From positions 13,638,944 through 13,702,943 of the forward strand of contig NC_087083.1 in NCBI RefSeq assembly GCF_026151205.1: a stretch of 64,000 bases of DNA, written 5' to 3'. This document shows positions 14,955 through 63,946 of the stretch, in pieces. The translations under genes and the position numbers were made by a program. Numbering within the stretch: position 1 is the stretch's first letter; the number at the start of each line of letters is the position of its first letter. Under the pieces are notes generated by a model that had not been told where the DNA came from, did no database searches, and worked only from the letters and a program-made list of their open reading frames with translations. The DNA is from Bolinopsis microptera (lineage: Eukaryota > Ctenophora > Tentaculata > Lobata > Bolinopsidae).

Positions 14955-17900
14955 TCAAAGTCCACTGTCGTTCATGTCCAAGTTTGATAAAGCTCTAATG
15001 TCTCGTGTTTCACTGTTTCCAGGTAAGTGGGTATCGTTGCTATGGAAACCGCTGCTAGTGCTGCTGGTTGACGTTGAAACGTGGTTGGTACTCAAGGACC
15101 TGTTTCGTAGCAAACTCCTGAAAAAATTAGTTAAATAATTGTAACAAATGTAAGTAAGAATGTTAAGCACGTGAAGAAACACGCGAGATTTTGTAAGCAG
15201 ACACCGGACAAGAGCCTGGAAGAGGATGCCGTAGGCATTATCGGTCAGGAAGGAGGTAACACGGAGACGGAACCCAGCCAGGATACAAACCACAGTGCAA
15301 AATGGAGGACGTCTACGTCTGCAAACTTTAGATCTCACGCAGATCCACCAGAACCGGTAGTTATTAAAACTCGATTAAAACTACCTAAGGCCAATGATAT
15401 TAGGTGGGACAAGATTGATCAAGACCTCGGTCTAATTGGTCTCCAGTTCACTACACACAGCGACCCTAGTAAGGGTTTGGAGTTACTTGAGAACACCACC
15501 TATGATTACCTCGAGTTGATATGCGAAGTTGGTTCAACAAATATTATACCATCGAAGAAAAAACCGAGACTTGATGCTGAGTGCAGACATGGTTGAGGGA
15601 AATGAAGAAAGAGAGTAGAAAGGAATGGAAGAGAGTATGCGACTCGAATGATGATGAACAGGTTAAAAGACAGAAGATTTCTTACCTGAAACTAGTACGA
15701 CTTCATAACAAAGCAAGAAAGACCGCCCAGAAGAAAGAAAGGAAAAAGATGAAAGAGAATAGCTCCAAACTCTTTAGAAAAAACCCTTCTGAGTATGGTA
15801 AGAAACTGCTCACGAAGGAAGAGACTAAAGATAAAGAGCCTGAGTTCGACAGTGAAGAAGCATCTAAGTTCTTTGAAAAGGAGTACAAAGATGATGACCG
15901 AGAGCGTGAATATGTAAACCCCACAGGACTGAAAGACCTTGACAAACCTGATTGGATCTGCAGTACAGCGCCACCCACATGGGATGAATTCCACCTAAAG
16001 CTTAAGTCAAGGAGAAATAAGTCAGCACCTGGGTCAAATGGTGTCAACTACCTGATCTACAAGAAGTGTCGAACTTTCAGTCACCATCTACACCATCTGA
16101 TATGCAGGATTTGGAAAACAGGAGTTGTCCCCCCACAGTGGAAGGTGGGAGTGAGTACATTAATTCCTAAAACGGATGATCTAAAAGATCCTGGCAAGTT
16201 CCGTAACATCACACTCCAAAACTGTAGTGGGAAGCTGTTCTTTGCCATCTGGGGAGACCGTGTACTTGAGCACATGACACGAAATCTGTTCATTGACACC
16301 TCAGTGCAGAAAGGTTTCATGAAGAAAACCCCTGGTTGCCTAGAACACACTCAAGCCCTCCTTGAAGAGATTAAAGATGCTAAAAGCCACAGAAGACAAG
16401 TCCACGTGATCTGGATTGACCTTATGAATGCGTATGGGAGAGTCCCGCACAGCCTTATTATTTATGCCCTACGCCGGTACCACCTACCTGAAAGCTTCAT
16501 TAAGCTTATAATTGAGTATTATGGAAGCCTCAGTGTCCTAGTTAAGTGCAGGAAATGGACATCCAGAACATTCTGGTATGAGCTAGGCCTGTTCCAGGGA
16601 GACCCACTGTCCGTGATCCTGTTCCTTATAGTATTCAACATCCTACTGGAACTTCTAGCTGTACTGTGCAGTCAAGTTGGGTACGAGCCAAGCTTCAGTG
16701 ATAGCAAGACCTCAAAGAAAGCATTTGCTGATGACCTAACCCTGCTGTCGAAGAGCGAGAAGGAGATGAAGAAGATGTTGAAGGTAGTAGAAGAGTTCCT
16801 GGACTGGTCGAAGAAAATGAAGGCTAAACCATCGAAGTGCCTGTCTATGTCTATGAAGTGTACTGGAGGAAAGTACAATACCTATGATGCAGAGTTTGTA
16901 CTAAGCGAACAACAGGTGCCGTCCATTATCCAAGCACCAATGAAGTTCCTAGGAATGTACATGTATGTAGATCTTGAGGTGAAGGAAATTCGGTCCATGA
17001 TTAAGAAGAAGTTAGAGGACCTTTTGGAAACAACATCTAATGATGAAATCACTGGTCCAATGAAGGCGTGGGTGTATAACCACCTCATCATTAGTAAGAT
17101 GTCATGGGGGTTTACTGTTTATAACCTACCCATCACATTTGTGAGAGAGCTTGAGGCACTGTGTAACAGATACCTTAAGAAGTGGCTAGGGATTGCGCAT
17201 CCTTGTACCACCACCGTCCTCTACAGGAGTAGAGACCAGAAAGGATTGCAGCTGAAAAACATCTGCACTGAGTACAAAGTCATCCAACTTATTAAGGGAC
17301 ACCAACTTTGTAACTCAAGTGACCCCTACATCAAAAAAGTGTACTCTAACCATAAGGCTATTGCAGACACACAGAAGATGTGGTCTTATCCCAAAGAGCT
17401 GAAAGACCGTCAGCGCCAACTTTACTTCCAAGAGTTAGTTGGAAAACCTGCAGTTGGTACAACTGGCCTCGGGTATGGGACAAGATATGAGGACACATCA
17501 GAGAGGAAACTGCTAACCAACATGGTGAGGACCTTTGATGAAGAGACACTTATTTGTTCACTTTTTGACAAAAAGCGGCAAAACCTCTTTCTCACATGGG
17601 AAAATACAATGACATTTGACACCACGTGGAATAACCTGATCTATCAACTTAGTCCGGAACTGTTAAAGTTTCATGTCAATGCCATCCATGACACTGCGTC
17701 AACACCTAGCAACCTAAAGCTTTGGAATAAAGCCGTTTCAGGAAACTGTAAACTCTGCAGCAAACAAGGGACACTCAATCATATCCTCACGTTCTGCAAG
17801 GTTGCACTGAGACAGGGACGTTTCAACTGGCGCCATGATCAGGTCCTACGTGAAATCATGAAGACTGTTTCATCACAGATTGAAGAGTTTAATTCCGACA

Positions 17901-20900
17901 TCGCCAAGGAATCGAAGAGGGCACCGTCGGTCTTTCACAAGGCAGGCAATAAGCGCGAGAAGGTTACCTTAGCTGACCCAACTCATCATAAGACCAAAAG
18001 ATATTTCTTTTCAGATGCCAACGACTGGAAGATAATATTTGATGAGGATGAGAGACAGAGGAACTTCCCGCAGCACATTGCAGCTACACCACTAAGACCT
18101 GATGTAGTGATCTATTCAGATAAAGCAAAGAAGGTTTATCTAATGGAGCTGACTTGTGGAAATGAGCAGAACTTTGCTGATCAAGAGAAGCGAAAGATGA
18201 AGAGATATCAGCAGCTGACAGAAGAGATAGAAGCCAACGGATGGGCTTGCAAGCTCCAGACAGTAGAAGTGGGAGCTCGAGGCATTTACAACTATAGCCT
18301 CCCAACCTTTATGAACCACCTGAACGTAAACAACAAAGAGAAGAAGAAGGCCTGCATGAAGATCGCTGAGATCAGCCTGAGGGCATCGTATACCATCTAT
18401 TTGTCCAGAAACAATACCATATGGACAGATGATTGGGAGTTAGTCAAGAGACCAGTAATAGCATAGTAGGAGCGTAGAATGTTTGGGCCCAGAAAAACAT
18501 GTTTAATACCGCTATGAACCCGTCATAAGCCGGGGACTACTATGAAAATGATGATGCTGTGTTGTTGAAAGACCTTCGACCAATCAAAGATGTACCTCAT
18601 CACGCCAAGCAGTTATGCTTGTAGGTGAATATACACTTATAGAGTACAACAACTTTATAACACTCCTCAAATAAGTTGACTGAGACCTGTCAAGGATTTT
18701 AGATAACATTCTACCAACAGCTGGAAACCCTCATTTTCTATTGATATTACTAAAATTAAAAAAATATTCTAAGTGCTAAATATTCTAAATATTCTAAATA
18801 TTCTAAGTACTTAGTCTTACCCTCGTTTTTTCTTGTGAGCAGCGTTTTCACTGAGTGACCGGTATATTCGCTCCTTCACTGTCTCTTCTACTGTTGCAAA
18901 ATCACATGGTACCTGTCATATGAATATTGGTTAGCAAAAAGTTTCCAATTTAAATCTATATAAGGGGTCGTTCACATATTACGTAATCACTTTTTGGACA
19001 ATTTTTAACCCCCTCAGCTGATTACGTAATATGTGAACTCGACCCCTAATTATTAAACAAAAGTGGAACAGGCTAATTCTTGCGGCTGTATTTGCAGAGT
19101 TGTATAGGGTTAACTTCTGCCTGCTCTGCAATTAGGTACTACAAACCTGTCAAACTAATTAAGTTATTAGGTACTATAACAAACCTGTTCAACTAGACTT
19201 TTAACAGAGTCTACAGCATCACAAGCTATCTTCACCACGTCCTGTCCATATCCATACTTGTTTGTCTCCCTAGAGGGGGAGTCACGTGTTATGGAAATAA
19301 CCAAACTAGCCAATCACTAGTCGTCTGTTGGACATTATGGACAATCGATCACTGGTTAACTGTTGGACATTATGGACAATCGATCACTGGTTAACTGTTG
19401 GACATTATGGACAATCGATCACTGGTTAACTGTTGGACATTATGGACAATCGATCACTAATCGTCTGTTGGACATTATGGACAATCGATCACTGGTTAAC
19501 TGTTGGACATTATGGACAATCGATCACTAATCGTCTGTTGGACATTATGGACAATCGATCACTGGTTAACTGTTGGACATTATGGACAATCGATCACTAA
19601 TCGTCTGTTGGACATTATGGACAATCGATCACTGGTCAACTGTTGGACATTATGGACAATCGATCAATGGTCAACTGTTGGACATTATGGACAATCGATC
19701 AATGGTCAACTGTTGGACATTATGGACAATCGATCAATGGTCAACTGTTGGACCAATCATGAACCAGATAATTCAATTAAGTACAAATTTGAAGCGGTGT
19801 TATTACCAGAAACGAGCGTTTAAATTCCATAAAACAAAACATTTAAACCCGTAAAACACAAACCTCTTGAATTTGAGGGACTCCATGGTCCGTTTGAGTT
19901 GCTGTAGCGAGGCTGCTGACTCAGGGCAGTTTATTATCAGTTCAGTAAGTCTCGCTTGTAGCTGGGCTATCACCTTGCTCCGTTCTAACACTTGTATTTG
20001 TAGCTCACACAACTGAGATGAAGGAACTGTTATTTGTTATTTAAGAAATAATGAAACGACCAAATATTTGTTATTTTATCACATTGACCCAATACAACTG
20101 TTAATCTACGCAGAGTTTGTGAATCTTTAATCTTCGTTTATCTTAAGAATGTGCGCCGCGCGTTGACAGTTGAGGAAATTAAATATCGGAGGGGGTCAGT
20201 GATTACCACCACCCCCTCACTTTATTTTGTAAAAAAGTGATACAAAACAATCTGGTAATCACCCATGATGTTGCAGCTGGCAGCAAAGATCACTAATATT
20301 CACTATTAACTACATATTTGGCATTACATATAATTATATTTAAATCGGGAAATGACCCAGAAAACCTCATATCACGAATATCAGCTCAGCAATTAATTGT
20401 GCTTTTTTTTCCTTACGTGGTAGTCACCCTGTGATCGTCTCAAATATTTCTTTATGTCAAACCCCATCTCTCAGTTTCACTTTCACTCAATCACTTTCAC
20501 TTTCGATTTGCCTACAGTATTGTGTGTCGTTGTGATTTGTGTCAAACGTGCTACAATTAAGTAGTCCCATTACCCTAGTATTGCTGTACAATTTCTACAT
20601 AATTAAGGAAATAGTTAACATTAATAATGTTGATGGAGATGATACAAGAGTATTTATCCTCTTATATATTCTCTAAAATACCTCACATGATAATTATAAT
20701 AAAAACTGCTCAAAAATAGTTTGCGAAATCTACAAGATATTAAAGTATCAAGACAATTAAAATGTCACAGTAAATAGAAATAACTGGCAAGTATAGTTAT
20801 GCGAAATAGCTTTTATGTTTGAAGCCAGTTTTATAGCAAGTTAATCAAAATTCATGCATGTCTTAATTATATCAATATTTTATATTTTCATAATTTTATA

Positions 20901-50833: not shown

Positions 50834-51469
50834 TTAAATGACAAGTCTATAAGTAACATATCTCCCAGCAGTTTCGCTGTTCCTTACAATTCTCACAACC
50901 TGACCACGCCTCAATCCAAAATATCTCGCAACAGGATCTGATGTTTGAATACGTGGCAACTGTGCTTCCTTCAGCCTATATCTCTGCATTAGCTCTTTCT
51001 TCTCGTCGTCAGTCATCACACTATGTTCTGGCACAAGAGAATGCTCTGTAATGTTGATAAGAAGCTCTGTTTCAAGAAACATCTCCATGATGTACTTAGG
51101 GGCCATGTCTACAATCCCACCTTTGGCAGATGGTGTCATACCACCTCGCACAACTATTATCGATCTCATTATATTTTCTTGCTGCATCTTCGTAAAATAA
51201 GCTTTGACAGTTTTAACCCCTACTTTTTCATCATCAGGAAAAAAGACAAACATCTGATCAGTGGGATCATCATTGTGAGCAACCAATATAGATAAACTAC
51301 TCCTTGATGGTTTTCCCTCACTGGGTCTGTCACCGAATTGTTCTTTAAACTGGTCTAAAGTAAAGTCCAGTTCATCTTGAGTGACAAGATAGCCTCTGTC
51401 GTGACAAAGGTGCATCAATGTCTTTCTTACCCTCCACAGTTTGTACGTTTCTGCGTCATCATCTGCCAT
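50834..51469 (-). CDS. POLR2E: RNA polymerase I, II and III subunit RPABC1 (RPB5)
   Basis: A complete intronless frame of 211 residues from ATG 51469 ([18 protein letters not shown]). The open frame extends 26 codons further upstream but without conserved residues. The N-terminal jaw domain ([27 protein letters not shown]) is followed by the conserved assembly domain ([50 protein letters not shown]). RPB5 is shared by all three nuclear RNA polymerases. The length matches the human protein (210). Lack of introns contrasts with the intron-rich SCAI, ADCK1 and QPCT-like genes and may point to a retrocopy, though the sequence looks fully functional. Confidence 0.96.
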
Positions 51470-51547
51470 GATCTGATAAGATTTGATTTTTAACTTCTTC
51501 TGTATATAGAACTCGTATATAATATATTTGTCTTGTATCAGATACAA

Positions 51548-53000
51548 GTTGTATATTTTATAATACCTATAATATTGTATCTACATATTATATTAACAAA
51601 AAATGAACAGTCCAAGATAAAATTGATTGACACCAACTAAAACTGGAATTTTCACAGCATGATACAAATATAATTCCTCTGTTAAAAATTTGGTAAACAA
51701 TTAGTATGCACTTCAGATAAATGACATCGAGGAAATTGAACACAACCCACAGATTGAGCAGATCAGATGCAGATATCATAATATCTAAAAGATGGCAGAA
51801 ATTTAAAGATGTGCCTTGACATACAATGAAAACTTGAACATTGAGGAAAAAAGGAAGCTAGCCTTGCAATCCATTCAATCAGAATTCCAGAGTCACAATT
51901 TGGTTTTGCATCAAGACAGTAGCATAAACCACAGTCGGGACACAACCCAACATTTAATCCTGTAATCGGAGCCTCAACCACCCACACCATACCATTTAAC
52001 CATGGTGGTCAGGGGTGTAGAATCATTCCTACACCCCTGATGGTGGTTGATGAAGGACCTTCGAGATTAAGTCTAATTTAGTCTATCGAATTTAACCTTA
52101 TTTTATTAAAAATTCATTTATTTGAAAACGAGTCAATTACCTCGACACATCAGACAAAATCTATTTAAAATTTAAAAGATGTTTTAGAATAAGAGAACAG
52201 TAGTATTATTTTCACAGATAATAATATATATATAATGATATGAAGAACATGATAACAGTAGTATTATTTTCTCAAATCTTGATATAATTTAAAATCATTA
52301 ATAAAAGAATTTCAAATGTTGGAGTAGTTTGCTGTTTATTAGTCTCATGATTGAAATACTGATAGCTGGATAATATCTGGTTGGAATTTCACAATAGCAC
52401 CATTAAACGAAAAGTGACAGAAGCCTACTACTAATTTATTTAAACCTAATATCAATAACAAGGAAGAGTGCGAGCAGCTTAAGGGATTTCTTTCACAATA
52501 TATTCAGAGACAAATTTAAACATTAAACAAATAGCACACGACCCTCATGTTCGGTAGATATATGTCCATTGTCCTTGGACAGAGTGTAAAACGTGTGTAC
52601 ATTACCATCTTGTGTAATATTTAAGACCACTTGATGTAATTACATCAAATGGTTAAAAAATATTAATGTGTATTCAGTGTTTAGAATTTTAGCATTTTAC
52701 CTAATATTGTAGAACCATTTATAATTATATTAGAATTTTATACTAACATTTGTACCAATTATAGCCTGAAGACGGCGTTGATGCCGAAAATTTGCCTACA
52801 TTCCTAACTTCCTGTTTCATTTGTTCTTGTCTCTTCAAACCGGATATTATTCAGCTATCAATAAAATAATTGATTAAAATAGATAAAAATAAATAAAAAT
52901 AGATAAAATCTGATAAAAACAGAACGGTCACATATTGACCTTTTCAGCTTAATTTAAAACATCGAGCTATTTCTGACATGGCAATAATGATAAATTGTCT
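51548..53000. other. Non-coding region with hairpin and short local repeats
   Basis: No gene seen. A hairpin lies at 52003-52044 (CAGGGGTGTAGAAT and its inverse ATTCCTACACCCCTG). At 52763-52790 CCTGAAGACGGC is followed by GATGCCGAAA, a stem-loop like those in tails of some retroelements. Confidence 0.45.
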
Positions 53001-53029
53001 AAAAGATATATCGTATAATTTATAATATA

Positions 53030-53260
53030 TAAAGCTGCAATAAATTATGAAACATTACATAATGATATTAGAAGAATAAGATAACAGTAGTAATATTATT
53101 CCAAATGTACATTAAATATATAATCATTTAGAATAATTGATTTAAAAATTGATGATATATCGTATAATTTATAATAAACAAAGCTGGATTAAATTATGAA
53201 ACATTACATAATGATATTATGAAGAATAAGATAACAGTAGTTATATTATTCCAAATGTAC
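53030..53260. repeat. 149-bp tandem repeat, interrupted by the purine element
   Basis: TATGAAACATTACATAATGA recurs 149 bp apart (about 53046 and 53195). The second unit is broken by the element at 53267-56953; its remainder, and the start of a third unit, continue after 56954 (ATAAAGCTGCAATAA at 57046). Confidence 0.8.
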
Positions 53261-53266
53261 ATTAAA

Positions 53267-56200
53267 GGGGGGGGGGTGACATGTCTCCAATGTCTCCAAT
53301 GTCTTTTGTCTTTTTTGAAAAGATAGGGTGCAGAGACATGTCCTGGAGACATTGGAGACATTGGAGACACAGCTTCTGGAGACATTGGAGACATTGGAGA
53401 CATTGGGGACATTGGAGACATTGGAGACAAAGCTTTTGGAGACATTGGAGACATTGGAGACACTGGAGACGTAGATGTATGATTGGAGAAGGAGGAGGAT
53501 CTAGGAGGAGGATGACCCAGGAGGAGGACTCAGGAGGAGAAGGAGGAGGATGAGGACTCAGGAAGAGGACTGAGGAGGACTGAGAAGGAGGAGGACTGAG
53601 GAGTACTGAGGAGGATGGCTGAGGAGGATGGCTGAGGAGGATGGCTGTGGAGGATGGCTGAGGAGGATGGCTGAGGAGGATGACTGAGGAGGAGGACCTA
53701 GGAGGAGGAGGACCCAGGAGGAGGACTCAGGAGGAGGAGGACTCAGGAGGAGGACTCAGGAAGAGGACTGAGGAGGACAGAGAAGGAGGAGGACTGAGGA
53801 GTACTGAGGAGAATGGCTGAGGAGGATGACTGAGGAGGATGACTGAGAGGGAGGAGGAGGAGAAGAAGGACTGAGGAGAAGGAGAAGGAGGAGGATCTAG
53901 GAGGAGGATGACCCAGGAGGAGGACTCAGGAGGAGAAGGAGGAGGATGAGGACTCAGGAAGAGGACTGAGGAGGACTGAGAAGGAGGAGGACTGAGGAGT
54001 ACTGAGGAGGATGGCTGAGGAGGATGGCTGAGGAGGATGGCTGTGGAGGATGGCTGAGGAGGATGGCTGAGGAGGATGACTGAGGAGGAGGACCTAGGAG
54101 GAGGAGGACCCAGGAGGAGGACTCAGGAGGAGGAGGACTCAGGAGGAGGACTCAGGAAGAGGACTGAGGAGGACAGAGAAGGAGGAGGACTGAGGAGTAC
54201 TGAGGAGAATGGCTGAGGAGGATGACTGAGGAGGATGACTGAGAGGGAGGAGGAGGAGAAGAAGGACTGAGGAGAAGGAGAAGGAGGAGGACCTAGGAGG
54301 ATGAGGACCCAGGTGGAGGACTCAGGAGGAAGAGGAGGACTCAGGAGGACTGAATAGGAAGAGGACTGAGGAGAAATGAGGAGGAGGAGGACTGAATAGG
54401 AGGAGGAGGAGGGGGACTGGGGGAGGACTGAGGATGAACAAGACTGACGAGAAGGATGAGGAGGAGGACTGAGGAGGATGAAAAGGAGGAAGACCCAGGA
54501 GGAGGAGGGATGAGGACTGAGGAGGATGGCTGAGGAGAATGGCTGAGGAGGATGACTGAGAGGGAGGAGGAGGAGGAGGAGGAAGAAGACTGAGGAGGAG
54601 GAGTAGGACTGAGGAGGAGAAGGAGGAGGACCTAAGAGGAGGAGGACCCAGAAGGAGGAATCAGGAGGAGGAGGAGGAGGAGGACTCAGGAAGAGGACTG
54701 AGGAGGACTGAGAAGGAGGAGGACTCAGGAGTACTGAAGAGGATGACTGAGGAGGAGGAGGAGGAGGAGAAGGACTGAGGAGGAGAAGGAGAAGGTGGAG
54801 GAACTAGGAGGAGGATGAACCAGGAGGACTCAGGAGGAAGAGGAGGAGGACTGAGGAGGAGGACTTAGGAGGAAGAGGGGGAGGACTGAAGAGAACTGAG
54901 GAGGAGGAGGACTGAATAGGAGGAGGAGGAGGGGGACTGGGGAGGACTGAGGAGGAGGAGGACTGACGAGAAGGATGAGGAGGAGGACTGAGGACTGAGG
55001 AGGAAGAGGAGGAGGATGAAGAGGAGGACGAGGACCCAGGAGGAGGAGGACTGAAGAGGAGGATGAGGATGAGGACTGAGGAGGAGGAGGACTGAGAAGG
55101 ACTGAGGAGGATGGCTGAGGAGGATGACTGAGAGGGAGGAGGAGGAGGACATATGAGGAGGAGGAGAAGGACTGAGGAGGAGAAGGAGGAGGACCTAGGA
55201 GGAGGACCCAGGAGGACTCAGGAGGAGGACTCAGGAGGAGGAGGAGGACTCAGGAGAAGGACTCAGGAAAACTGAGGAGGAGTGAATAGGAGGAGGAGGG
55301 GGAGGACCTATAAGGAGGAGGACCCAGAAGGAGGACTGAGGAGGAGGAGGAGGAGGAGAACTCAGGAAGAGGACTCAGGAGGACTGAGAAGGAGGAGGAC
55401 TGAGGAGTACTGAAGAGGATGACTGAGGAGGAGGAGGAGGAGGAGAAGGACTGAGGAGGAGAAAGAGAAGGTGGAGGAACTAGGAGGAGGATGAACCAGG
55501 AGGAGGACTCAGGAGGAAGAGGGGGAGGACTCAGGAGGAGGACTTAGGAGGAATGAGAAGGAGGAGGACTGAGGAGAACTGAGGAGGAGGAGGAGGACTG
55601 AATAGGAGGAGGAGGAGGGGGACTGGGGAGGACTGAGGAGGAGGAGGACTGACGAGAAGGATGAGGAGGAGGACTGAGGACTGAGGAGGAAGAGGAGGAG
55701 GATGAAGAGGAGGAAGAGGATCCAGGAGGAGGAGGACTGAAGAGGAGGATGAGGATGAGGACTGAGGAGGAGGAGTAGAACTGAGGAGGACTGAGGAGGA
55801 TGGCTGAGGAGGATGACTGAGAGGGAGGAGGAGGACTGAGGAGGAGGAGGATAAGGACTGAGGAGGAGAAGGAGGAGGACCTAGGAGGAGGAGGACCCAG
55901 GAGGAGGACTCAGGAGGAGGACTCAGGAGGAGGAGGAGGACTCAGGAGGAGGAGGACTCAGGAGGAAGACTCAGGAAAACTGAGGATGAGGAGGAGGAGT
56001 GAATGGGAGGAGGAGGGAGACTGGGGAGGACTGAGGAGGAGGAGGAGTAAGGAGAAGGATGAGGAGGAGGACTGAGGAGGAGGATGAGGACTGAGGAGGA
56101 GGAGAGTAAGGAGAAGGATGAGGAGGAGGACTGATGAGGATGGCTGAGGAGGATGGCTGAGGAGGATGGCTGAGGAGGACGGCTGAGGAGGATGGCTGAG

Positions 56201-56920
56201 GAGGATGACTGAGGAGGATGACTGAGAGGGAGGAGGAGGAGGAGAAGGACTGAGGAGGAGGAGGAGGAGGAGGAGAAGGAGGAGGACCTAGGAGGAGGAG
56301 GACTCAGGAAGAGGAGGAGGACTCAGGAAGAGGACTCAGGAGGAGGACTGAGAAGGAGGAGGACTGAGGAGAACTGAGGAGGAGGAGGATGAGGACTGAA
56401 TAGGAGGAGGAGGGGGACTGGGGATGACTGAGGAGGAGGGGGACTTGGGGAGGACTGAGGAGGAGGAGGAGGAAGACTGACGAGAAGGATGAGGAGGAGG
56501 ACTGAGGAGGAGGACTGATGATTGAGGAGGAAGAGGAGGAGGATGAAGAGGAGTAGGAGGACCCAGGAGGAGGAGGGCCCAGGAGGAGGTGGACCCAGGA
56601 GGTCCGGAGGACGACCCAGGAGGAGGACCCAGGTCCCAGGAGGAGAACTCAGGAGGAGGAGGAGAACGACTGGGGAGGACTGAGGAGGAGGAGGAGGAGG
56701 AGGAGGAGGAGGAGGAGCCTCCAAAAGCTGTGTCTCCAATGTCTCCAATGTCTCCAATGTCTCCAAAAGCTGTGTCTCTAATGTCCCCAATGTCCCAAAT
56801 GTCCCCAATGTCTCCAATGTCTCCAAAAGCTGTGTCTCCAATGTCTCCAATGTCTCCAATGTCTCCAATGTCTTTGTCTTTTTCGAAAAGATAAGGTGCG
56901 GGAGACATTGGAGACATGTC

Positions 56921-56953
<33 letters not shown>
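53267..56953. mobile_element. Purine-rich array bounded by inverted repeats and a 6-bp target duplication
   Basis: The left end is ten G then TGACATGTCTCCAATGTCTC; the right end is the inverse, GAGACATGTCA then about 32 C. Behind each end, in opposite orientation, lies a TTTTTGAAAAGATA-type block and an array of the 9-mer GACATTGGA with AGCTTTTGGA spacers. ATTAAA flanks both sides (53261-53266 and 56954-56959). The neighbouring tandem unit at about 53110-53120 shows the uninterrupted site ACATTAAATATA. The interior (53490-56705) is GGAGGA-type sequence. No transposase frame is present. Confidence 0.7.
53490..56705. repeat. 3.2-kb GGAGGA-type polypurine array with higher-order repeats
   Basis: The plus strand is almost free of long pyrimidine runs, built from GGAGGACT, GGAGGATGGCTGA and similar words. 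A 396-bp unit occurs in direct tandem (marker CTAGGAGGAGGATGACCCAG at 53501 and 53897). A marker GACTGACGAGAAGGATGAGG recurs at about 54961, 55647 and 56475. Long open frames on both strands are compositional artefacts. Confidence 0.95.
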
Positions 56954-57449
56954 ATTAAATATATCATTTAAAATAATTGATTTAAAAATTGATGAAAATA
57001 GAGCGGTCACACAGTGACTTTTAGATATCATAAAATCTGTAAAAATAAAGCTGCAATAACTTATGAAACATTACCACTACACATAAAATCTTCAATCTTG
57101 CAAAATGCATTAAAAAAGCTTAAATCAAGCTGTGATCTGAAAATTAAAAGTTCCTGCAAATTTTAATGAATCCGTTCAAATTGGTGTTCATATTGCTCAA
57201 CCACATTGTGAGTTTCCTAATAGCCTAATAAATCAAACTGAACAATACCATGGTCAGATAAAGTAAAAAAGAGTTAACATGTCCTGATCCCGCAGCACTA
57301 CATGCACCAGCATCTCCAAAACATCCTAGACACGCATCAAAACTCAGAGTAACAATTTTGAGCTTTAAGTTGACGCAACCGTGAAGAGTTTCATTTACCT
57401 GATAATGAATATATTTTACCCGCTCCATGGCAAAGATTTCGATCACTTG

Positions 57450-57726
57450 TGAATCTAATTTACAAGTACATACTTAAATATTGTTGGGCAGGAAAAATAA
57501 AGTATGAGAGTGGTTACTTATAGTTATAGCAAAGATATTGAAATTATGATTTCATGTTGTTGAACTTGTTGCCTATCATAATATACAGACAGCAAACAGG
57601 GTAGCAGCAAGTTTACAGCATTCTTAATATGAGCACTATAACTTTAAGTACCTAGAACTTATAGTATGTCTTGTATCATTAACTATTATACCAGTTACAC
57701 TAGTAAATTTTAAGCATGCTTACCCG
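57450..57726. other. Intron 2 of the GPI-like gene
   Basis: No other feature seen. Confidence 0.4.
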
Positions 57727-58675
57727 TGAATACTTTGTGAAGTACAGACAAATCTCAAACAGTTCTAGAACTGATGCACAAATATCGTCTTTGAAATCGA
57801 TTAATTCTCCGCTCATTTTTACATCTCCATTCCATGTGAGGTGAAACTTTATTTCTGTCCCATTACCTTTGTAAGTCATGTTTATGCAAACATAACCATT
57901 ATCCTCTCTTATTAAAAAGGATGGTATCTTGCCTATTTTTCCACAGCATTGTGAACCGTGCGCATAATCATTACATCCAGGCTCCTCCACTGAAATATAT
58001 TAAAATTAAATAGTTACCTTTAATATTTCTGGTTCACATCAATGACCAGGTAAACATCACCAGGAATCAAAATTAAAATAAATAACGAAACACAGATTTC
58101 CATCTGCATTGAGTAATCTAGCTAATTTCCAGGGAGACCATGAGTGGCGTAGGGGGCGCAGGCCAAATCGTCGTTTGAATGTGGGACAATTTTGAAAAAC
58201 TTCAAGTGAAAGTAAGTAGTAAATCCTCTAAAATCACCTAATTTGTCCAATTTTACGTTTCTTCTTAATTTAAGCACTAGATATAGGAATGGTGAGAGTA
58301 TTCATTTGCACATTGAGTCAAATGCGATCCAGGCAAGCACTGAAATTTAGCAACATTACTTATAAAACCACTTCATTAAAATAGTATCATTAAAATTGAA
58401 TATTTGAACTTGCTATGACGTATTGATTCTGATAATCACAACACTGATATTCAAGAAAAACTGAAAACATACGTTTAACATCAGTAGAATCTTCATCCAA
58501 AGTCTCATTGTGGCTGAATGTGCTGTTGTCAAGCATGGCAGTGCTGTTGTCAAGTAAGCTAATAAGTCCTTTCACAGCATCTATCTCCAAGTCCGATAAA
58601 GTTTCGTTACTTGTCCTTCCAGACGAGTCTATCCCTGCCCTTGAGACATTGACCATCGCCAGGATGCATAGTAGC

Positions 58676-60672
58676 AATAGCAGTTGGCAGTTGTATGGGT
58701 AAGCTGTTCTCTAGCATCTTACTTGAACGTCTGTTACACTTCAAAAAGCTCTACTGTCCTGACCCAAAAGAACAGCTTGGATTTTCGAAAGGTGCCCAAA
58801 CTAACGATCACGTTTTCACCCTCAAGACAGTAATTGACAAATACACAAAAGCTAAAAAGGCTCGTCTTTATGCATGCTTTGTTGATCTAAGAAAGGCCTT
58901 TGACACTGTATGTAGGGACCTCCTTCTGCACAAAATTACATGCCTTGGAATAACCGGTAACTTCTTCAACTGCCTAAGTGATATGTACAAAAACTCTATT
59001 GCCCATATAAAAATTTCCAAACTCTTGTCGCCTAAAATTGATATTGGCAAAGGAACGGAGCAAGGACACCCCCTATCGCCAGACCTCTTTAAAATCTACA
59101 TTAATGACTTTTCATCTCTCCTGAAATCTGTTGGTGACTATCCAGTTCTTGCTGACGTTCTGATATCACATCTGCTGTGGGCTGACGATCTTGTCCTTCT
59201 TGCTCTAAGTCCCGAGGCCTTGCAAGTCAATATCAACATTCTATTTGATTTCTGTAACTCCATGGGCCTTGAAGTAAATATTAAGAAAACTAAGATTGTA
59301 ATATTCAGCCCTCCCAAACGAAAGCAGTCCTATGAAACATTCACATTGGGAGGTCAGCCCATCCAGCACACCGATAAATACTGCTATCTTGGCATAATAT
59401 TCCACAGAAATGGATCGTTTACAGCAGCAAATACTGAGCTGAGGGCCAAGGCTCTCCGTGCTCTCTATGGCCTCAAAGGCAAAATAGTTAAGGATGCCCT
59501 CTCACACCGTGCCCTTAATATTCTATTTGACTCCTTAATAAAACCAATCCTGCTTTATGGCTGTCAAGTCTTATGCCCCCACTCAAAAACCATGAGATAC
59601 CTTTCAAAAATAGATGACAAAGCCAACCCCCAGCATACCTTGAAGTACATTGCACAGGACCACTATGAAAAATTCCACCTAAAGTTTATCAAGTGGTCTT
59701 TGTCTGTACATTCAAAAGCATCAAATATAGGTTGCTGGGGCGAAAGCGGGCGCCACCCTCTATTCTTTGAAGCCTGCAAACTTGCAATAGATTACTATAG
59801 TTGCCTTGAAAACACTGAAAACGAACTACTCTGTGCTGCATTTCACGAACAAATCATGTTGGGACTTCCTTGGTATACCAACATCTCAAAGCTTCTCACC
59901 AAATACAACTTCACCCCCTCATCTTCCTCAAAATCTAAGCTCTCCACCCAAATCAGTCATAACATGAGGGAAGAATTCGTGAATACCTGGAAAGCTGCCA
60001 AGGCCTCCTCGCCAAAACTAGAATTCTATAACTTAATTAAACATGATTTCGAACCAGAGGCATACCTACGAATTATCAAAATACCGGATGTTCGAAAAAG
60101 TCTGACAAGGTTTCGTATCAGCTGCCACAACCTCTACATCGAAAGGGGCAGATACGAAACCCCCCTTGTACCAAGAGAAGAACGTTGGTGCACCTACTGC
60201 TTTTTCAGCAAAGGGCTCAAGCCTATTGAGGACGAAAGTCACGTATTGATTGACTGTTTGCTCTACTCCTCAGTTAGGGAAAAATTCAATTTCCATCCCC
60301 TAAACATTACTGACCTAGTCGGTTTGCTCTCCAACAAAACTCTAGATCCTACCACACTCACTGCCACAGCAAGAGCAATCCATTCAATTCTCTCTGTGAA
60401 CGAAAATTATACAGCCTACTATAAGAGCCCAGATTTCCACTCAAATACTGGCAAGTGCATAATGCTATAGGACCTTAAAATAAGATTGAACCATACAAAC
60501 TCGATTTATCTATTTTTCTAAAACTAGCATTATATAACATTTCTAAATTATCCCTACACACTTGTAAATAATTAGAATTGTGTAACTTAAATTATTTCAG
60601 AATTACAACTATTGTGTACTCAATAAAGTAATTATCACTTTTGTATCCTTGTATCCTTGTATCCTTGTATCC
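58676..60672 (+). mobile_element. 5'-truncated LINE with 7-bp target duplication
   Basis: TAGTAGC flanks both sides (58669-58675 and 60673-60679). The 3' end is a short tail of four GTATCCTT units. The coding part begins in the RT domain (VGSCMGKLF). The reading frame is open to its stop, so the insertion looks recent. Confidence 0.85.
58695..60472 (+). CDS. Truncated LINE reverse transcriptase with C-terminal zinc knuckle
   Basis: About 591 codons with no stop. RT motifs: GKLFSSIL; QLGFSKG; YACFVDLRKAFDTV (catalytic Asp); GTEQGHPLSPDLF; LLWADDLVLL (catalytic DD; W in place of the usual F/Y); NIKKTKIV. The C-terminus has SLTRFRISCHNLYIERGRY and a Cys/His motif C-x2-C-x16-H-x4-C, found in many endonuclease-encoding LINEs. 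The endonuclease and ORF1 are missing through 5' truncation. The clade is not assigned. Confidence 0.88.
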
Positions 60673-62304: not shown

Positions 62305-63946
62305 TACTACTACTACTACTACTATGTCGGAGCTAAGTCCGATCTACGCCAGAAAACCCCCTCCATATATCCCTGTCCCGCATCAGGGTTCGCAGTTCCT
62401 CTTTAGAGTTTGTCCCAACTTCCTTCAGTAAATAGACAAGTAGCTTTGTCTTGGTCGGCCTTGCTGTGCTCTACCGTGCGTAGGTTCCATAATACGACTA
62501 AATCACTGGCAAGTAGCTCAGGATGTCGGATGCAGTGTCCCGCCATTTTTAATTTCCTGCTTCGTAACTTGTTTGACAGCCTTGGGAGGCTACCATACAA
62601 AGTTATATTGCTGACCTTGTCCTTCCATGAGATACCCAGCACCATACGCAACATCTTTGTGTATGTCCCGTCCAAACTTTTCTCTTGAGCCTTTGTCAGT
62701 GTCCAGGTTTCTGATCCGTAGATCAGTACTGATTCACAAGCCGCTATGAACAATCTAATCTTGAGGCTCTTTGAGAGTTTGGATTTCCAGATATCCTTCA
62801 GTCTATGTAGGGCACCCCATGCTTTTCCCTTTCTAACCCTTATCTCCCTATCTGTGCTCTCAATCCAGGAGCCTAAGTAGATGAAATCATCTACATTTTC
62901 TATGGCTTCCCCGGATCGACTTAGTAGGTCGCTAGATTGATCCTCCATATTCAGTGTCATGACCTTGGTCTTGCCTTCATTTATGTGTAGTCCCACGCTT
63001 GCTGCCGCCGATTCTACTCTGAGCAGGAACTCGTTAGCCTTGTCCATGTCCTCAGATATAAGTGCTATATCATCTGCAAAGTCCACATCGGTGATGATCT
63101 TGGGCCCCACTCTTCTGCTTTTTCTACGTTCGAGGGTGAGTCCAAGTCGCTCCGCATCATCGCCTATGGCTTGCCTCATAAAGTAGTCGATGACTATTGC
63201 AAAGAGGTAAGGTGCTAAGGTATCACCCTGTAACACACCTGCAAGTATTTCGAACAATTCAGTTTCTCCGTCTGGAGTTAGGACTTTGGCCATTGTCTTC
63301 TCGTACATGAGCCGTATAAGCTGCACGATTTTGACTGGAATGCCGTAAGCTTCTAGAATCTTAAGCATTTTCCCACGATGTACACTGTCGAAAGCCTTCT
63401 TAAAGTCTATAAATGTCAGAACGGCTGGCAGTTTCCGACTCTTGACACCCACTATAAGACGTCTCAGTACCAATATCTGTTGAGTTGTTGACCTTCCTGG
63501 TCTGAATCCATTCTGGTTTCTACGCAGAATTGTCTCGATTTCTGGCTTCAACCGGTTTAGAACCATCTTGTTTAGAGACTTGGCAACTAGGGATGACAAG
63601 CTTATTCCCCGATAGTTCATTGGTTCGCTAAGGTCGCCCTTCTTTGGAATTGGTATGATGTTGGCAGTTGACCATTGGTCTGGTTTCTCACCTTTCAATA
63701 GAGCATTGTTACAGAAGTCTAAGACAATTTGATCAAGGTCGCATCGTTTTAAGACTTCTGGGGCTATGTTGTCGTCACCCCATGCTTTCCCTTCCTTTAT
63801 GCTGGACTTTGCTTTCCTGTACTCATCCAACGTAAACGCTTCTGTTCCGATATTCAGAGGTGGGTGGACTGGATCAATATCCTCTTCCGCGTTCTCTACC
63901 GTCGGTGGTGAGCCGAGAAGAGTAGCAAAATAGTCCTTCCATTTTT
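62305..63946 (-). mobile_element. RTE-like LINE, truncated at 5' end
   Basis: The 3' end is a TAC/AGT trinucleotide tail (62302-62323), typical of RTE-type LINEs. The RT frame fills the element. Upstream of about 63946 an in-frame stop appears, so the 5' part is lost or frameshifted. Confidence 0.82.
62403..63944 (-). CDS. Reverse transcriptase of an RTE-like LINE, N-terminal part missing
   Basis: The open frame begins at about 63944 (WKDYFATLLGSPP), passes an internal Met at 63830 and stops at 62403. RT motifs: WGDDNIAPEVLK; IIPIPKKGD; NYRGISLSS; NQNGFRPGRST; LTFIDFKKAFDSV (catalytic Asp); GVLQGDTLAPYLFAI; DFADDIALI (catalytic DD); INEGKTKVM. A thumb follows with YLGSWI and YGSETWTLTKAQ. 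The endonuclease is absent. The product would resemble RT-only ORFs of RTE/BovB-group elements. Confidence 0.88.
   Translation of the reverse strand, partial: KWKDYFATLLGSPPTVENAEEDIDPVHPPLNIGTEAFTLDEYRKAKSSIKEGKAWGDDNIAPEVLKRCDLDQIVLDFCNNALLKGEKPDQWSTANIIPIPKKGDLSEPMNYRGISLSSLVAKSLNKMVLNRLKPEIETILRRNQNGFRPGRSTTQQILVLRRLIVGVKSRKLPAVLTFIDFKKAFDSVHRGKMLKILEAYGIPVKIVQLIRLMYEKTMAKVLTPDGETELFEILAGVLQGDTLAPYLFAIVIDYFMRQAIGDDAERLGLTLERRKSRRVGPKIITDVDFADDIALISEDMDKANEFLLRVESAAASVGLHINEGKTKVMTLNMEDQSSDLLSRSGEAIENVDDFIYLGSWIESTDREIRVRKGKAWGALHRLKDIWKSKLSKSLKIRLFIAACESVLIYGSETWTLTKAQEKSLDGTYTKMLRMVLGISWKDKVSNITLYGSLPRLSNKLRSRKLKMAGHCIRHPELLASDLVVLWNLRTVEHSKADQDKATCLFTEGSWDKL

Follow-up and report, generated by a model that had tools for sequence, protein, structure and literature searches.

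The question raised by this locus is how a block of 3,687 bp, most of it a polypurine minisatellite, came to lie between two copies of the hexamer ATTAAA (window 53267-56953; the window is the whole stretch of 64,000 nucleotides that was analyzed). With a probability of roughly 0.85, we regard the block as a non-autonomous DNA transposon with terminal inverted repeats (TIRs), which was moved in trans by a transposase and carries an expandable minisatellite as cargo. Dispersed copies with common ends, target duplications at differing sites, the empty site beside the copy in the window and the occurrence of one target repeat in split and unsplit form suggest that its family, here named F1, is mobile. 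Elements of this general kind are already known; the variant described here looks new.

The two copies of the target duplication (53261-53266 and 56954-56959, neither with a strand) were delimited by sequence reading and flank matching. At its left side the insert opens with a run of 10 Gs (53267-53276, +), which is followed by a 21-bp TIR of the A type, TGACATGTCTCCAATGTCTCC (53277-53297, +; sequence reading and end sorting), by the A-type subterminal core with TTTTTTGAAAAGATAGGGTGC, defined from the A ends and forming the middle of a strong hairpin (53298-53342, +), and by a 9-bp array of GGAGACATT (about 53343-53470, +). The interior (about 53485-56717, +) is a GGA-rich polypurine minisatellite of ~3.2 kb, composed of GGAGGACTGA-like units and higher-order copies; purines make up 83% of it, and GG-rich runs are numerous on its purine strand. 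The right side consists of an inverted 9-bp array of TGTCTCCAA (about 56731-56873, -), the B-type subterminal core with TTTTTCGAAAAGATAAGGTGC, defined from the B ends (56874-56900, -), a 21-bp TIR that is the perfect inverse of the left 21-mer (56901-56921, -; sequence reading and end sorting), and a run of 32 Cs (56922-56953, +). All other boundaries come from sequence reading, supplemented by Tandem Repeats Finder for the C run and by Tandem Repeats Finder with a period analysis for the two arrays; the program reports period 9 in the arrays and periods 3, 10 and 13 in the interior. Hairpin folding of both ends lies far above that of shuffled sequences (DNA fold z -6.5 for the A end and -6.2 for the B end), and is weaker for the end of a second family, F2 (z -3.6). 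The minisatellite interior contains no transposase frame: each of the six reading frames of the element is interrupted by 15 to 65 stops, and two open frames have no Pfam match. The sequence-only reading of this block had described inverted ends with a G run, long inverted 9-bp arrays behind them, ATTAAA on both sides and a lack of any transposase, all of which is borne out. It had also located an uninterrupted site in the neighboring tandem unit, and the joined flanks indeed align across the insertion point to that unit, with ATTAAA intact at 53111-53116 (no strand) and a 3-base gap directly beside the site.

The assembly searched, to which the window belongs, comprises 264.65 Mb. A genome search with the 40-bp end had been proposed at the outset, and ends found nowhere else had been named as a sign against a mobile element; the terminal 20-mer GGGGTGACATGTCTCCAATG has 131 exact matches (69 forward and 62 reverse), as opposed to 0 and 0 for the reversed pattern. 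The idea of a single insertion event is right in so far as the block is a mobile insertion with a repeat-only cargo, but it is no lone oddity: F1 comprises about 65 copies, dispersed over many contigs with differing flanks. Over the main match, identity to the left-end query is 98-100% in the best 40 of 179 candidate loci, and to the right-end query 96-100% in the best 40 of 183. We read 37 of the about 65 elements (36 fetched, plus the window's own). In 34 of these, purines or pyrimidines make up at least 75% of the DNA 300-900 bp inside every recognized end. The three others are an element with a LINE inserted near one end (L003-L004), one with an inserted element of family F4 (L005), and L022, a single end that looks truncated. 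Length ranges from 999 to 13,645 bp among the 27 elements with both ends recognized, and falls between 2.4 and 4.6 kb in 22 of them. The longest copy (L001-L002) is polypyrimidine throughout, and another of 12,740 bp owes its length in part to inserts. Every one of the 27 combines one A-type with one B-type end; the sorting script gave 26 and 28, and the second end of L006 was placed with the A ends by eye. The B end of L024 is without a core. Of 79 sequence records examined, 14 contain an exact copy of a 75-mer from the A end in the window. On the strand read, run lengths vary from 5 to 33 for G and from 6 to 32 for C, to which sequencing error may contribute. Exact matches to the F1 end are absent from genome_contigs and viral_contigs, and those to the F2 end from viral_contigs; as these collections hold prokaryotes and viruses, the result carries little weight.

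Several copies have a history of their own. At L003-L004 an F3 element is nested inside F2, F2 inside the LINE, and the LINE inside F1. The first frame of this LINE-like element (L003:1025-2767) contains a 2OG-Fe(II) oxygenase domain of the AlkB type according to Pfam, with a weak GDSL-lipase match below the family cut-off, and a reverse-transcriptase-like frame, recognized by eye, comes next. L008:68-1480 is duplicated in tandem (period 1,179 bp), and the duplication takes in at least 215 bp of identical flank and one F1 end. In L032 (923-1089) the G run of an F1 copy is interrupted by the insertion of a short element, hAT-like by eye (CAGGGACAAAAG ... CTTTTGTCCCT); L027 represents the same F1 insertion site without it.

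The duplication of 6 bp, which had likewise been singled out for checking, recurs well beyond the window. Altogether 46 distinct paired insertions were compared (F1 27, F7 10, F2 7, F3 1, F4 1). Their flanks match over at least five bases in 38 cases, whereas 2000 shuffles of the right flanks give 2.2 such cases on average and 8 at most. The match is exactly six bases long in 30 pairs; it measures five in seven, eight in one and four in one, and in these nine pairs the limit of the duplication is obscured by a base of the G/C run or by a TA repeat. A strict match fails in seven pairs (L006, L010, L013, L019, L032, L044 and L053). Later changes account for some of them. The C run of L010 is interrupted, L032 carries the insert within its G run, and L013 and L044 show near-matches. 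Among the 30 exact duplications, position 3 is T in 27 and position 4 is A in 26, with a central TA in 24. The insertion target is a palindromic TWTAWA preference, and the window's ATTAAA is one instance of this loose target.

Ends with G-run tips are not confined to F1. The F2 end, GGGGGTGTCACGTCCGTC, has 394 and 397 matches (791) at one mismatch or less, its control 0, and the interior beside each recognized end is 78-86% one-sided in all seven F2 loci. Exact 40-mers common to the interiors of F1 and F2 number 102, and 0 if F2 is reversed; BLAST identity between them is about 75%, which is weak evidence because the reversed control reaches about 70%. The two families have differing ends and, judging by the shared 40-mers, one family of minisatellite. 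A search for copies with different interiors had been proposed; F1 copies differ in length, and in F2 the same kind of minisatellite lies between other ends. One F2 copy (L042:1-3900) contains a ~1.0-1.2-kb unit, subterminal arm included, that is tandemly repeated several times.

For F7, the end GGGGTACCACTGTCC and its variants have 34 and 31 matches at two mismatches or less (control 0). F7 interiors show no bias toward purines or pyrimidines (50-63%); at C3:11618839-11618958 an F7 end pair is only 120 bp apart. F4 elements are short, with 100% identity over 92 bp in 21 of the best 40 of 179 candidate loci, and the pairs deducible from the matches listed measure about 240-515 bp. F6 is represented by a single end (L023) and by what is likely a remnant within F2. 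The strongest subterminal period, determined without a shuffled control, is 9 bp in F1 and F7, 10 bp in F3, F4, F6, F8 and the left arm of F2, and 20, then 10, in the right arm of F2. A search for G7 runs with a WWTAWW flank gave 204 matches, many of which arise by chance, since the control yields 125. It also yielded a repeat with inverted ATTATAGGGGGGGTATAGGAAGCGAG segments about 1.3-1.4 kb apart (L073; pairs on C1, C2, C4 and C6), which was rejected as a candidate: its G7 is internal, and the inverted repeat continues past it.

The smallest forms are nearly all tip. A variant of the F1 end pattern, changed at its 15th base, has 86 matches (control 1), 52 of which lie in two tandem arrays. 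One array, a cluster of 36 matches on C3, includes L080:1-301, where units of ~25 bp each consist of a shortened G-tipped end and TATATT; the other, with 16 matches, is located on C7 near 19.718 Mb. At L081:93-140 there is a 48-bp form composed of G13, 22 bp and C13 with GGACTGA at both sides, although the Gs blur its border. These forms hint that hardly anything besides the tips may be required, and that a tip together with a single target copy may itself turn into a minisatellite. Should the 48-bp element have transposed at this length, it would rank with the smallest units to do so.

We compared the G-tipped elements with known transposon groups, and their ends match none of those tested. 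Helitrons and Helentrons, which move by a rolling-circle mechanism and are not known to have TIRs or target duplications of such a kind, are ruled out by the 21-bp TIRs and the 6-bp duplication. With non-autonomous TIR elements of the MITE type F1 shares the TIRs, the target duplication, the missing transposase gene and the many copies, but usual MITEs are shorter than most F1 copies. In Porphyromonas gingivalis, a minisatellite is said to lie inside a MITE, likewise a gene-less element with inverted ends, but a bacterial one. Galileo, reportedly a member of the P-element superfamily with a known transposase, is said to have long, repeat-rich TIRs that its transposase binds at several sites, and these TIRs offer a model for the 9-10-bp arrays of F1. 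Another comparable element is Tetris, a foldback element of Drosophila virilis that, as described in the cited excerpt, is also non-autonomous, with tandem repeats in its inverted ends, expanding arrays and no known transposase; its duplications of 8-10 bp and its repeats of about 220 bp within long TIRs (PMC4079207) differ from the 6-bp duplication, 9-10-bp subterminal arrays, G-run tips and separate polypurine interior of F1. The Helentron-type Cg_HINE of the oyster is likewise reported to be non-autonomous with satellite-like central repeats, and related repeats may be shared between differing flanks (PMC7492417), but F1 has inverted ends and a 6-bp duplication.

The target duplication bears on further groups. 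Mutator/foldback elements (MULEs) are reported to duplicate 8-11 bp (PMC6446971) and fit poorly with 30 of 46 duplications of exactly 6 bp, although the figure of 4-10 bp given for the IS256/MuDR group (PMC10045372) argues against a firm exclusion. The piggyBac and Kolobok groups, for which a 4-bp TTAA duplication is reported (PMC9587614), are ruled out, as the duplication here is 6 bp of TWTAWA and TTAA is not required. Dada elements reportedly insert in small RNA genes and are without terminal inverted repeats (PMC3706591); they are ruled out by the TIRs, by the AT-rich targets and by the absence of any Rfam match across window 52400-57800. A duplication of 6 bp is reported for hAT6 elements (PMC12730594), and likewise for Polintons and IS3EU/GingerRoot (PMC10045372), and IS3EU and Polinton fit on this length only.

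A full-length relative with a transposase, which the sequence-only reading had suggested looking for, did not turn up in the copies read: no transposase was found between G-tipped ends in 37 of the ~65 F1 copies, seven F2 loci and 11 F7 loci. The two longest F1 copies consist of minisatellite throughout in one case and contain a LINE with nested G-tipped elements in the other. Read inward, unpaired F1 ends (among the 100 of 131 matches listed) lead into polypurine or polypyrimidine sequence or are truncated, and the F2 loci lead into minisatellite. The F7 loci contain no long transposase-like frame, and some reach fragments of other elements. A search for MULEs gave 88 matches; paired G/C-run ends were absent in the four loci read, with an isolated C9 in L057. 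A search with the IS481 model, in which 63 of 394 candidates were scored, returned LTR-size frames as well as integrases of 317-363 aa, none of which lies between G-run ends in the loci read. Pfam assigns an rve domain to the three integrases tested and a chromodomain to two of them. Together with an ATPase-like frame beside them, recognized by eye, these integrase frames (L066-L069, several copies) read as putative Polinton-type elements. Two copies share 99.66% identity across 4.5 kb upstream of the integrase frame, and because of this we consider the elements recently active.

One could ask whether a Polinton or an IS3EU/GingerRoot element elsewhere in this genome supplies the enzyme in trans, in the form of its retroviral-type integrase, with the G-tipped elements as its non-autonomous derivatives. 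This sub-case of the preferred explanation is unlikely, yet it is the strongest of the alternatives. It would account for the 6-bp duplication, and the recently copied integrases are at hand. The termini of IS3EU/GingerRoot are reported as TA..TA or TG..CA (PMC10045372), and similar dinucleotides occur right behind the G run: TG..CA in F1 and F2, TA..TA or TA..CA in F7. However, the very termini of the G-tipped elements are G/C runs, F3, F4 and F6 begin with neither TG nor TA, and the cited part of the literature describes both Polintons and IS3EU/GingerRoot without homopolymer tips. Moreover, seven integrase loci from three families contain no G or C run longer than 5, and 9 kb upstream of one of them contain no G run above this length.

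A spread without any transposase, through extrachromosomal circles of minisatellite DNA that integrate or through gene conversion, is improbable. The differing lengths of the minisatellite interiors and the abundance of GG-rich runs on the purine strand agree with such a process, but fixed inverted ends, a single A/B arrangement and a fixed 6-bp duplication would be unexpected, and F7 moves with the same tips without a minisatellite interior.

Slightly less probable still is a spread of F1 chiefly through the duplication of larger repeats that carry it along. The idea draws on a flank common to five F1 loci, in all of which the element has an identical orientation. A query of 130 bases made from the joined flanks, with the best 40 of 41 candidates scored, reveals 11 unsplit copies of this host repeat and 10 that are split by 2.4-4.5 kb. 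Five of these 10 have exactly bases 65-70, the duplicated 6-mer, in both of their halves; in the other five, the right half begins elsewhere or the left half stops earlier. F1 is present in the three split copies read (L014, L018 and L033), and a fourth has F1 ends in the match list, while among the 100 of 131 matches listed no F1 end falls on the split copies at C5 15.56 Mb, C8 12.12 Mb and C10 7.77 Mb; the remaining split copies fall outside the listed part. The copies with the shared flank may represent one insertion that was duplicated along with its host repeat. The remaining flank pairs, however, vary by locus, and passenger spread holds for one shared-flank group at most. That the block is an assembly join, or arose by inverted duplication on the spot, can practically be dismissed: homopolymers and long simple repeats are difficult to assemble, and the lengths given for runs and arrays may be inaccurate, but for the ends such an origin is refuted by 131 matches spread over many contigs, with flanks that differ and duplications of 6 bp.

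For the preferred reading, a non-autonomous TIR transposon mobilized in trans, the following course can be envisaged. A transposase from elsewhere would bind the short terminal repeat, and the 9-10-bp subterminal arrays, spaced about one helical turn, would perhaps provide extra binding sites. The enzyme would cut the DNA at the edge of the G run and join the ends to an AT-rich target with a 6-bp stagger. The polypurine minisatellite would be a passenger whose length shifts through slippage or unequal exchange, and the length of the G run would vary through slippage as well. Our literature search, with Repbase, Dfam and subscription papers outside its scope, brought up no element recognizable as G-run-tipped, and in the literature searched homopolymer tips were not met together with a 6-bp TWTAWA duplication and a cargo common to families with differing ends. 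As a tentative and rather doubtful extension, F1, F2, F3, F4, F7 and probably F6 might together constitute a DNA transposon superfamily that has not been described before, defined at its ends chiefly by three features: a G run that varies in length, subterminal arrays of 9-10 bp and the 6-bp TWTAWA duplication. Recognition would perhaps rely on structure (hairpin or G-quadruplex) as much as on sequence, and members, down to the 48-bp form, would seed and spread minisatellites genome-wide. The status of a new superfamily depends on the enzyme.

The elements are of special interest in that a minisatellite travels as packaged, transposon-like cargo whose length differs by copy, which offers a route for similar arrays to reach many chromosomes. 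The homopolymer tips pose the question of how a transposase finds one exact cut beside a G run of 5 to 33. In the ctenophore lineage, over 90% of loop promoters have been reported to contain DNA transposon insertions (PMC12221973); if the host is a ctenophore, the G-tipped elements may bear on a lineage with transposon-bearing loop promoters. Elsewhere in the 64-kb window, a single open frame of 248 aa encodes RPB5 with both of its Pfam domains (50834-51580, -), and three reverse-transcriptase frames are present at 15581-18466 (+), 58653-60470 (+) and 62403-63944 (-).
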